A stretch of 64,000 bases of DNA from Sinorhizobium terangae (GTDB taxonomy: Bacteria > Pseudomonadota > Alphaproteobacteria > Rhizobiales > Rhizobiaceae), in assembly GCF_029714365.1 (NCBI RefSeq), contig NZ_CP121659.1, positions 3,371,001-3,435,000 on the forward strand. Reading direction: 5' to 3'. The position numbers were made by a program, and so were the translations under genes. The notes beneath the pieces were generated by a model that was not told the origin of the DNA, ran no database searches, and was given only the letters and a program-made list of their open reading frames with translations. This document shows, piece after piece, positions 13,490 to 52,104 of this stretch (position 1 is the stretch's first letter; each line of letters starts with the position of its first letter).

Positions 13490-13747
13490 ACTCTCATCCT
13501 TCTGGTTTCCGGTTTACCAATTGCTCAGCCGGAAACGTGGGTTCCCTCGCGCGGAAAACAAGGCGCAAAGCCAAAAACCACCCGAGGGCGCAACGCGCTG
13601 TCGGATGTTGACCTCCGGGCTCTCTTTATACCTTTGCGGGGCCCGGTCGGCGGCTTCGAAGTCATCACTTGCGAAGGAATTAGCCGCGATAAACAGGAAA
13701 GCGGGTGAAAAGTCAAGGATTGGCGGCAAATGAGCTTGGAAGCCACT

Positions 13748-18288: not shown

Positions 18289-20175
18289 ATGGCGATTGGT
18301 TTCATCAAAAAGATCTTCTCCTTTGGCAAAGGCGCCGTAGAGGAGAAACCCGCGCCGCCGCAGGAGGCGCCGGAAGCGGCACCGGACGCGGTCTCCAGCG
18401 GGGCTGCGACGACCCCCTCTGTCCCTTCGGGACATCTTCCCCACGAGGGGGGAGAGGGGGTGGAGCCCAAGGCGACCGCCGAGAAGCAGGCCCGCGCTGG
18501 AGAGGCCGCAGGTGGTGTGGACGATATTGCCGCATCGCCCGACACAAGCGCCGATGACGCCAATACGAAAGGCGGGAATGCCGACGCAAGCCTCGATATA
18601 GCCGCGTATGAAGACATTGCCGTGCACGAAACTGTCCCGGTGGAGGACGAGAGCGCGCCTCCCCCAATCTCCCCGCTTGTGGGGGAGATGCCCGGCAGGG
18701 CAGAGGGGGGTGCGTCCCCATCTGATCACGCCGAGACGCGCGAAGGTGAAAGGGCCAAGGCCGCCACACCCCCCTCTGTCCCTTCGGGACATCTCCCCCA
18801 CAAGAGGGGAGATCAGGCGGAGACCGAGGTAACCGCAGAGGACGAACAGACCCGCGCTGCGGAGAAAGCGGCCGGTGTGAACGATATCGCCGCTTCGCCC
18901 GACACAAGCGCAGAAGACACCGATACGAGAGGCGAGAACGCCGAGGCAAGCCCCGACTTCGCCGCCCATGAAGACGCAGCCGCGGACGAAACCGTTCCGG
19001 TGAAAGACGAGCGCGCGCCTCCTCCAATCTCCCCGCCTGTGGGGGAGATGCCCGGCAGGGCAGAGGGGGGTGAGGCCGCTTCCGGATACGCCGAGAAGCA
19101 AGAGGAAGAGGCTCGAGCGGCGACACCTCCCTCTGTCCCTTCGGGGCATCTCCCCCACAAGCGGGAAGATCAAATCGCAACGGCATCAAGCCTCCCCAAA
19201 GGCTTTGCCACCGCCGACAAGCGTCCGAAGGAAGCAGCGCCCGCCCCTCAGCCGAAGCTTCCCTGGTACCAGCGCCTGCGCCGCGGTCTTGCGCGCTCCT
19301 CGTCCCACCTGAAGGGCCAGATCACCAGCCTCTTCACCAAGAGGAAGCTCGACGAGGCGACGCTGCAGGATCTCGAAGACCTGCTGATCCAGGCCGATCT
19401 CGGCGTCGAGACGGCAATGCGCATCACCGATACGCTCGCCTCCGAGCGCTATGGCAAGGACGTCTCCGGCGAGGACGTGTCGCGCATCATGGCCGGCGAG
19501 ATCACGAAGGTGCTGGCACCGGTGGCCAAGCCGCTCGAACTCGATCTCAGCCACAAGCCGCATGTGATCCTCGTCGTCGGAGTCAACGGCACCGGCAAGA
19601 CCACGACGATCGGCAAGCTTGCCGCCAAGCTTTCCGGCGCGGGCCTGAAAGTGATGCTTGCGGCCGGCGACACGTTCCGCGCCGCAGCGATCGAGCAATT
19701 GAAGATCTGGGCCGATCGGACGAAATCCGACATCGTGTCCTCGAAGCTCGGCGCCGACGCAGCCGGCCTAGCCTATGAGGCGTTCCAGCTCGCGCGCGAG
19801 AAGAAGTCGGACGTGCTGATCATCGACACGGCCGGGCGGCTGCAGAACAAGGCCGAGCTGATGGCGGAGCTCGAAAAGATCGTCCGCGTCCTCGGCAAGC
19901 TCGACCCGGACGCGCCGCATACGGTCCTGCAGACGCTGGACGCGACGACCGGGCAGAATGCCCTCCAGCAGGTCGAGATCTTCCGCAACGTCGCGGGCGT
20001 CAGCGGCCTGATCATGACCAAGCTCGACGGCACGGCGCGCGGCGGCATTCTCGTCGCGATCTCCGCCAAGCATAAGCTGCCGGTCTATTTCATCGGTGTC
20101 GGCGAGGGCGTCGACGATCTCGAACCCTTCGAGGCAAAGGATTTCGCCGATGCGATCGCCGGCGTTGCCGCCTGA
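18289..20175 (+). CDS. ftsY: SRP receptor GTPase FtsY with repeat-expanded acidic domain
   Basis: 628 residues, about 100-130 longer than the usual rhizobial FtsY. The C-terminal NG domain (about 323-628) is intact: P-loop VNGTGKTTT (432-440), DTFRAAA, DTAGRLQN (513-520), TKLDGTARGG (577-586) and VGEGVDDL. The acidic A domain (about 15-320) holds a tandem duplication of about 119-120 residues. PSVPSGHLPH occurs at 43, 162 and 281, and VGEMPGRAEGG at 131 and 251. These peptides are translations of an intergenic-type palindrome in both orientations. FtsY receives ribosome-nascent-chain-SRP complexes at the membrane. It is the third gene after dapF-mtaB. Confidence 0.95.
   Translation: MAIGFIKKIFSFGKGAVEEKPAPPQEAPEAAPDAVSSGAATTPSVPSGHLPHEGGEGVEPKATAEKQARAGEAAGGVDDIAASPDTSADDANTKGGNADASLDIAAYEDIAVHETVPVEDESAPPPISPLVGEMPGRAEGGASPSDHAETREGERAKAATPPSVPSGHLPHKRGDQAETEVTAEDEQTRAAEKAAGVNDIAASPDTSAEDTDTRGENAEASPDFAAHEDAAADETVPVKDERAPPPISPPVGEMPGRAEGGEAASGYAEKQEEEARAATPPSVPSGHLPHKREDQIATASSLPKGFATADKRPKEAAPAPQPKLPWYQRLRRGLARSSSHLKGQITSLFTKRKLDEATLQDLEDLLIQADLGVETAMRITDTLASERYGKDVSGEDVSRIMAGEITKVLAPVAKPLELDLSHKPHVILVVGVNGTGKTTTIGKLAAKLSGAGLKVMLAAGDTFRAAAIEQLKIWADRTKSDIVSSKLGADAAGLAYEAFQLAREKKSDVLIIDTAGRLQNKAELMAELEKIVRVLGKLDPDAPHTVLQTLDATTGQNALQQVEIFRNVAGVSGLIMTKLDGTARGGILVAISAKHKLPVYFIGVGEGVDDLEPFEAKDFADAIAGVAA
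18412..19175. repeat. Palindromic repeat arms in frame inside ftsY, tandemly duplicated
   Basis: Five arms are visible: about 18412-18460, 18660-18712, 18767-18815, 19018-19072 and 19125-19173. Arms 1, 3 and 5 read CCCTCTGTCCCTTCGGGACA; arms 2 and 4 are the inverse orientation, ending GGCAGGGCAGAGGGGGG. Spacing between like arms is about 357-360 bases. The arms resemble the Rhizobiaceae CCCCTCTG...CCCCACAAG intergenic palindromes. All are in frame with ftsY and contain no stop. Confidence 0.9.
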
Positions 20176-20298: not shown

Positions 20299-20395
20299 GT
20301 GCATTCTCCTTGAATCGAGCCCGATTTAAGGAGAATGCAGCAACTCAAATGCTACAGCGGCCTTTGCGCGTCCCGTAAGACGCGTGGCGCGGTAG
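20299..20395 (+). repeat. RIME-like palindromic repeat
   Basis: The TGCATTCTCCTTGAATC / GATTTAAGGAGAATGCA hairpin is followed by CAACTCAAATGCTACAGCGG and a GCGCGTCC-type hairpin, in plus orientation. It ends ten bases before the yciB start. Confidence 0.78.
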
Positions 20396-31335: not shown

Positions 31336-31545
31336 TGTTTCCTCATTTAAGCCCCGGTTGGAGTGACGGTGTCGGGCGGTAAGTGCTTGTCCTTCAAGCG
31401 CCCAGGCGCCGCTGCGGGGCTCCAGCATGCCTGTGGACAAATATGATGTTGAAACGGATCACGCACAAGACCCGCAAGAGCCGGAATCGCGCAAAGCCGG
31501 GGCCTGAGCCATCAAACAAGGGTGATTTACGGTTAATTTCGGCGC

Positions 31546-51824: not shown

Positions 51825-51943
51825 TTGGCGAACAAACGCCGCCGACAATTGTTTGGTCTAATAGCGCAGATGTCTCGGACGGCAAATGTTTCCGCCGAGA
51901 CCCGGCTTGCAAGACCTGCCGCTGAAAGCTAAATCTTTTGCAG

Positions 51944-52045
51944 CTCTAACGGGGTGCCTTCGGTCCGCTTCATGGAACCAAGGCTGAGAGGCTCAAGCCA
52001 ACCCGCGGAACCTGATCCGGCTCATACCGGCGGAGGGATTAGAAG
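51944..52045 (+). ncRNA. TPP riboswitch (THI element)
   Basis: The conserved TPP aptamer is easily read: ACGGGGTGCC, then GGCTGAGAG (51982-51990; CTGAGA is the pyrimidine-sensing loop), ACCCGCGGAACCTGATCCGG, CTCATACCGGCGGAGGGATT. The closing stem pairs CTCTAA with TTAGAAG. It lies 60 bases upstream of thiB. In Proteobacteria such elements usually hide the ribosome binding site when TPP is bound; the GGGAGAGAGG before thiB is the likely target. Confidence 0.95.
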
Positions 52046-52104
52046 CGATCGGACCGATGCGCCCTTTTCCCGCAACATCAACAACAGGGAGAGAGGTGCC
52101 CGTC

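Follow-up and report, generated by a model that had tools for sequence, protein, structure and literature searches.

Palindromic repeat arms read in frame within FtsY and CobN of rhizobia: a repeat family apparently conserved at the nucleotide rather than the protein level

The ftsY gene of Sinorhizobium terangae raises the question of how palindromic repeats became part of the coding sequence of the signal recognition particle receptor, and in what capacity they are kept there. The gene lies at 18289-20175 on the + strand of the window (the whole stretch of 64,000 nucleotides that was analysed, positions 3,371,001 to 3,435,000 of contig NZ_CP121659.1) and encodes a protein of 628 amino acids (open reading frame list; NCBIfam TIGR00064, 315 bits; Pfam SRP54 and SRP54_N). 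The first-pass annotation of this DNA had located the peptide PSVPSGHLPH at residues 43, 162 and 281 and VGEMPGRAEGG at residues 131 and 251, and these positions were exact in the translation. The tandem period of about 119-120 codons given there corresponded to a measured spacing of 357-360 nt. The NG GTPase domain (19312-20157, + strand) was found intact, as had been claimed, by Pfam (SRP54_N at residues 342-401, SRP54 at residues 424-623) and by TIGR00064.

Repeat arms were identified with a covariance model (R1) trained on 15 arms from outside ftsY, three of these from CobN. R1 recovered all five ftsY arms with scores of 45.9-75.2 bits (E-values 7.5e-10 to 3.1e-17), and the next-best match in the window scored 24.7 bits. 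The arms are arranged in the order + - + - +, all five in frame, so the arm does occur in the FtsY linker in both orientations, as first described. The first + arm (18407-18462, + strand, 47.0 bits) encodes the peptide TPSVPSGHLPHEGGEG and contains a 13-nt hairpin of the type GTCCC-TTC-GGGAC, and the first - arm (18661-18715, - strand, 75.2 bits) contains a 12-nt hairpin of the type GCCC-TGCC-GGGC and is read on the coding strand as PISPLVGEMPGRAEGG. They are followed by the second + arm (18764-18819, + strand, peptide PPSVPSGHLPHKRGDQ, 53.5 bits), the second - arm (19021-19075, - strand, peptide PISPPVGEMPGRAEGG, 70.2 bits) and a third + arm (19121-19176, + strand, peptide PPSVPSGHLPHKREDQ, 45.9 bits), which has no - partner. 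A 19-nt core of the arm matched the window five times with up to 3 mismatches, always within ftsY (expected number 0.01), and a chance origin of the arm matches is excluded. Tandem Repeats Finder reported no repeat for the ftsY arms at its default score, and no Rfam family matched the arms at the gathering score.

Because the arm pairs found elsewhere in the genome all run from a + arm to a - arm, the array was interpreted as two whole elements plus a third + arm. The opposite pairing (- arm ... + arm), which had been proposed at first, was discarded since all 21 placed genomic pairs have the order + ... -. Element 1 (18407-18715, + strand, 309 nt) consists of a + arm, an acidic interior and a - arm; the interior of element 2 (18764-19075, + strand, 312 nt) is 77% identical to that of element 1. 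A direct-repeat search defined two copies of a tandem unit (18487-18739 and 18847-19099, + strand), which are 81% identical and spaced by 360 nt. The repeat search also gave direct repeats at 18402, 18759 and 19116, with spacings of 357 and 357 nt, and inverted arms (I1-I4) of 34 nt with a complementarity of 85-91%. In an AlphaFold model built from a 20-row alignment, which is weak evidence, FtsY had a mean pLDDT of 41 and residues 10-325 were without secondary structure.

Genome-wide, R1 gave 66 matches at E<=0.01, of which ftsY accounts for five. Thirteen of the 66, weak own-genome matches, were left out, and 48 matches outside ftsY were placed at 27 loci, which comprise 21 pairs (178-295 nt) and 6 single arms. 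An arm measures about 49 nt. Of its two hairpins, one is short (GCCC-TGCC-GGGC or GTCCC-TTC-GGGAC) and the other is based on ATCTCCCC...GGGGAGAT. A both-sides coding test (same frame, open, well scored) was passed by two of the 27 loci, both in CobN, and failed by the other 25; the test is a heuristic score, and a few failing loci (e.g. C1:310455, C1:1931919) could touch a gene end. By this test the family lies mostly outside genes, in keeping with the initial description of the arm as a mobile-type intergenic repeat. Capture had been said to fail as an explanation if the arms were confined to ftsY orthologues, and the whole-genome search found that they are not confined to ftsY. The interiors of the dispersed elements are partly shared, in mosaic fashion. 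With blastn the interiors of the two ftsY elements matched each other and no intergenic interior. Either of two courses may account for them: a whole element was captured and its interior replaced later, or the two arms were captured separately. The exact arm pattern was found in 25 of the 28 genomes searched. In G186, G187, G190 and G197 the + arm of ftsY has another arm at a distance of about 5.3-5.7 kb, in an apparently conserved place.

The first-hairpin stems covary. Complete pairing of this hairpin was seen in 64 of 85 distinct + arms, where 1000 shuffles gave a mean of 40.5 and at most 49, and in 70 of 96 distinct - arms, where they gave a mean of 44 and at most 54; the relatedness of the sequences inflates these counts. 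At the second pair of the - arm hairpin, C-G was present in 60, T-A in 20 and a mismatch in 2 of 82 rows. Independent-pair, tree-aware covariation tests gave no significance, the number of pairs being too small. The second hairpin had no excess of pairing in + arms (175 of 1000 shuffles reached the observed count) and a small excess in - arms (9 of 1000). Loops were more variable than stems, significantly so only in the - arm (p 0.036; + arm p 0.13). Single-strand folding was modest, with z scores that ranged from -0.36 to -2.80 for the five S. terangae arms and from 0.15 to -1.57 for four linker controls.

The distribution of the arms was examined in FtsY sequences taken from 240 loci in three overlapping sets: 33 genomes of the genus, the best 80 of 491 named-genome loci, and 130 from an even family sample (150 genomes matched, 130 extracted and 20 set aside). 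Arms scoring above 20 bits were present in FtsY of 32 of the 33 genus genomes, 70 of the 80 nearest named loci and 17 of the 130 members of the even sample, with a maximum of 6.4 bits in a reversed-sequence control. Among 218 distinct FtsY sequences 95 had such arms, a proportion that is weighted to near relatives and is not a family frequency. Arm-bearing FtsY is known from Sinorhizobium, Rhizobium and Pararhizobium, and the most frequent layout is + - (45 rows). Two - arms 200-520 nt apart, the spacing of the tandem unit, were found in 29 of 33 Sinorhizobium-clade rows; the exceptions were L030, L043, L046 and L132. L043, L046 and L132 have fewer arms, the arms of L072 are decayed, and of the 10 rows in the sister Ensifer clade, 4 show a + - pair and 6 are without arms. 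These rows with none, fewer or decayed arms mean that the arms are dispensable. On the NG tree, presence and absence required a minimum of 15 changes, a count that includes threshold effects and the misread row L030.

It had been suggested that copy number may vary between strains. The second S. terangae assembly (G032 = L050, strain USDA4894) has the same five arms, its FtsY differs at 1 of 628 residues, and its units are those of the first assembly; between species the number of arms does differ. The change visible between species is mostly decay of arms, with one apparently re-duplicated or converted species, L039 (G025). Its tandem units differ at 16 of 199 linker sites and those of the other clade rows at 22-41%, which looks like recent re-duplication or conversion. 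The reading frames of the FtsY arms are the same across genera apart from several rows in which the + arm is read in an alternative frame (PPSVLPDISPT or PPSALPGISPT), namely L102, L114, L115, L119 and L123, and L154 and L155 of the family sample. This is what would be expected of separate captures. A third form of the + arm (TPSG...HLPL..GGE) occurs in two or three copies in L173, L181, L190 and L218. In L153 and L161 the geometry of capture is different: the ftsY gene contains two longer - arms (PLSPLEGEMSAKPTEGG), one of which is close to where the linker begins.

Open reading frames were read from stop to stop, and the openness of the arms is thus partly built in. In a frame-blind control that covered the DNA upstream of NG, 306 arm matches fell inside the extracted reading frames. 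Another 4 lay upstream: 3 belong to L030, and the one in L090 is part of the same open frame, whose start had been misplaced. In L030 (G008), one of the 33 Sinorhizobium rows, the assembled ftsY frame is broken within the first unit, at the arm region, owing perhaps to a sequencing error, perhaps to a real loss; this row is scored as having none in the arm table despite its arms upstream of the break. The ftsY arms are very probably translated, since their frame is open in all rows read but one. The best evidence for this, among what sequence can offer, is the absence from ftsY of the arm type GTCACnnnGTGAC, which brings a TGA into the ftsY frame. This type has 157 copies in 26 genomes and none in their ftsY, although 22 of these genomes have a + arm there. 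Of the open type, GTCCCnnnGGGAC, 12 of 58 copies in the 26 genomes are within ftsY (Fisher p 6e-8, copies treated as independent).

Nucleotide and amino-acid conservation were compared using the best arm of each row (76 of 218 rows for the + arm and 83 for the - arm, rows below threshold being left out), a choice by similarity to the consensus that lowers all arm differences and leaves the asymmetry between synonymous and amino-acid differences unaffected. In bins of NG distance, the synonymous difference was 0.059-0.075 in the + arm vs 0.287-0.420 in NG, and 0.079-0.092 in the - arm vs 0.286-0.364 in NG, the - arm range omitting one bin of 2 pairs (0.286 vs 0.381). The amino-acid difference in the same bins was 0.188-0.428 in the arms and only 0.028-0.202 in NG. 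The arms thus reverse the usual pattern of coding sequence: the amino acids change and the synonymous sites hardly do. Third codon positions were no more variable than the others (0.059 vs 0.057 in + arms, 0.043 vs 0.082 in - arms). In the 13 rows of the R. tropici clade the synonymous difference was 0.000 in the + arm and 0.047 in the - arm, as against 0.260 in NG; the contrast was weaker in the R. leguminosarum clade (+ arm 0.098 vs 0.171). Codon choice in the arms is unadapted, GGG plus GGA making up 72% of Gly codons (NG 15%) and CCG 7% of Pro codons (NG 75%).

A similar contrast was seen within single genes. Between unit 1 and unit 2 the - arms differed at 130 of 1453 sites (9.0%) and the linker at 1692 of 5523 sites (30.6%). 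The units of one gene share their date of duplication, unless they were converted later. The difference reached p<0.05 singly in 26 of 32 rows, 3 of the rows not being Sinorhizobium. The better preservation of DNA letters than of amino acids suggests that the repeat matters more as DNA or RNA than as peptide. The linker had been called unconstrained; this holds for the peptide and not for the DNA of the arms, where synonymous sites hardly change. There is a caution in this as well: dN/dS and the conservation of peptides can give a false picture of coding DNA that serves at the same time as a nucleic-acid element.

The FtsY array was confirmed, and it is not alone: CobN (1462 amino acids; NCBIfam TIGR02257, 1781 bits) has a complete palindromic element at each of two sites, both of them in frame. 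The cobN gene was located by R1 matches and NCBIfam on the - strand at L270:4441-8829 (G000:C1 about 1772440-1776828). In 30 Sinorhizobium CobN loci, some of them cut short, each of the four arms scored above threshold in 15 or 16; 8 of the 30 had no match above 15 bits, and presence varies over the genus. The CobN arms are read in another frame than the usual FtsY frame. When the four arm sites were aligned, synonymous difference was 0.018-0.084 vs 0.326-0.338, that is, CobN has the same pattern of few synonymous differences in the arms as FtsY.

We consider it likely that the FtsY linker acquired an element in frame, that this element was doubled in Sinorhizobium, and that its arms were thereafter maintained at the nucleotide level. 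The source would be a rhizobial palindromic element in which a variable interior is flanked by two inverted double-hairpin arms, and the site of capture an acidic, probably disordered segment of FtsY. The capture most likely took place in the ancestor of Sinorhizobium, Rhizobium and Pararhizobium, and we infer a single ancestral event for these genera. Element and linker would then have been doubled in tandem early in the Sinorhizobium clade, S. terangae retaining a third + arm; similar captures would have occurred in FtsY of other genera and at the two sites in CobN. The reading frame acts as a filter against the arm type that brings a stop. After capture the arms appear to have been kept as nucleotides, with first-hairpin stems paired and synonymous sites nearly static while the amino acids drifted. 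The capture followed by duplication that the first-pass annotation had put forward thus stands as to the in-frame capture and the duplicated unit; the event is older and more widespread than one at the level of a strain or species.

What keeps the nucleotides is less certain. The arms may be working nucleic-acid sites (a double hairpin in the mRNA, or a DNA-binding or processing site) selected within ftsY and cobN, a proposal that we put forward tentatively; if it is true, the proteins carry the arm peptides for no other reason than that the site in the DNA or RNA is not free to change. A somewhat more doubtful explanation is homogenisation, in which gene conversion or re-insertion from dispersed copies overwrites the arms of ftsY and cobN and no function within the genes is needed. 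It would account for the same signature in two unrelated genes and for the nearly identical units of L039, and in six T-rich genomes the loop letter of the ftsY + arm is the genome-wide majority letter among the copies listed. Yet in G009 and G208 (+ arm) and in G198 (- arm) the loop letter changed only in the ftsY copy, and loop concordance, taken up as evidence of concerted evolution, meets counterexamples in these genomes. Twelve genomes have the exact open type in ftsY; in 7 of them this exact type of the ftsY + arm has no other copy, and in S. terangae the three copies of the ftsY + type (up to 1 mismatch) are all inside ftsY. The + arms of the R. tropici clade, which lack any synonymous difference over 13 rows, argue against homogenisation as well. 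Constraint in place is favoured over conversion, some exchange being possible: from these comparisons of sequence, the arms seem to be held mainly by a nucleic-acid constraint acting where they stand, such as a hairpin or a protein-binding site, and not by re-supply.

The stems could in principle be maintained without any selection. In quasipalindrome correction, intrastrand template switching repairs stems, and on this account the arms would be neutral passengers. Compensatory changes in the stems are predicted by selection and by templated correction alike, but correction alone should leave stems that drift in concert, whereas a single type dominates ftsY, with 50 of 101 + arms identical over the 13 letters, and most positions outside the stems are kept too; we regard this account as improbable. 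Still less probable is selection on the peptide, by which PSVPSGHLPHKGG and PISPLVGEMPGRAEGG would be kept because they help FtsY, for example in contacting the membrane or SecYEG. The position of the segment ahead of NG and the reading frames common to several genera fit such a role. Against it, amino acids are more variable than synonymous sites and third codon positions no more variable than first and second, patterns on which the reading of the arms as peptide motifs under protein selection was rejected; moreover, some FtsYs (PPSVLPDISPT) and CobN use another frame of the same arm, the arm codons are unadapted, and other lineages are missing the arms. That the array is an assembly artefact or the gene model spurious is barely credible. 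Short reads are easily assembled into too few or too many copies of a repeat, and one relative, L030, has a broken frame in this region, but the same five arms are present in two S. terangae assemblies (G000 and G032) and unit-spaced - arm pairs in 29 of 33 clade rows. The assembly error that had been allowed for at the outset is accordingly an unlikely source of the duplication.

Protein-coding palindromes are best known from Rickettsia, obligate intracellular bacteria in which relaxed selection readily offers itself as an explanation. Here the host genes are FtsY and CobN of large-genome rhizobia, and the same linker was hit in several lineages. The presence of arms within rhizobial genes makes the persistence of such repeats in genes testable in tractable bacteria. 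As a kind, protein-coding palindromes are already known: Rickettsia palindromic elements (RPE) and REPs occur inside genes (PMC2229807, PMC3733652). Like RPE as described there, the rhizobial repeat is palindromic and has copies in intergenic DNA as well as copies read in frame as part of conserved proteins. It was found in non-coding places (25 of 27 non-ftsY loci, by a heuristic score with some unclear cases), the host domains are kept (FtsY NG, and the CobN equivalog above cut-offs), and orthologues of both FtsY and CobN differ in presence or absence. The elements of ftsY and cobN differ from RPE as described in these sources in belonging to unrelated organisms and in their arm anatomy, a variable interior being enclosed by two double-hairpin arms that stand apart. 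Set beside that description, the rhizobial arms show conservation of nucleotides, and in much of the genus the segment of the host protein that holds them is doubled. The arms are a rhizobial counterpart of the Rickettsia protein-coding palindromes, apparently conserved at the nucleotide and not the protein level. Rhizobium-specific intergenic mosaic elements (RIME) are by definition rhizobial, intergenic, palindromic and mosaic, traits that the family studied here shares, with inverted arms and partly shared interiors.

RIME are described as rhizobial, intergenic and repeated (PMC2573895). Our family resembles them in these respects and in its shared interiors, and differs in that RIME are named as intergenic whereas the ftsY and cobN arms lie in coding sequence; the arm family is possibly the same as RIME or a sister family. 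REP elements are likewise small palindromes, often in opposite orientation, some of them inside open reading frames, e.g. in DNA repair genes, but are GTAG- or CGTC-tagged, whereas the rhizobial arm starts with CCCCCCTCTG and by eye has no such tag (PMC3733652). The enterobacterial RU-1/ERIC, RU-2 and RU-3 elements are similar in being non-autonomous, with open frames and in-frame gene fusions, and differ in belonging to other bacteria and having other sequences (PMC2759123, PMC2229807). The available parts of these two accounts do not mention nucleotide-level conservation or tandem doubling, and among the titles listed from the open-access literature none described in-gene palindromes of this sort for rhizobia.

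Some further features of the window were observed. Directly 3' of ftsY, at 20300-20339, there is by eye an A+T-richer palindrome, TGCATTCTCCTT...AAGGAGAATGCA, and a similar palindrome was seen, again by eye, inside the interiors of two dispersed elements, L312 and L313. Rfam placed RF01793, named 'ffh sRNA', at 13572-13622 on the - strand, about 4.7 kb from ftsY, a ybhL leader (RF00520) at 31347-31433 on the - strand, and a TPP riboswitch (RF00059) at 51940-52055 on the + strand.
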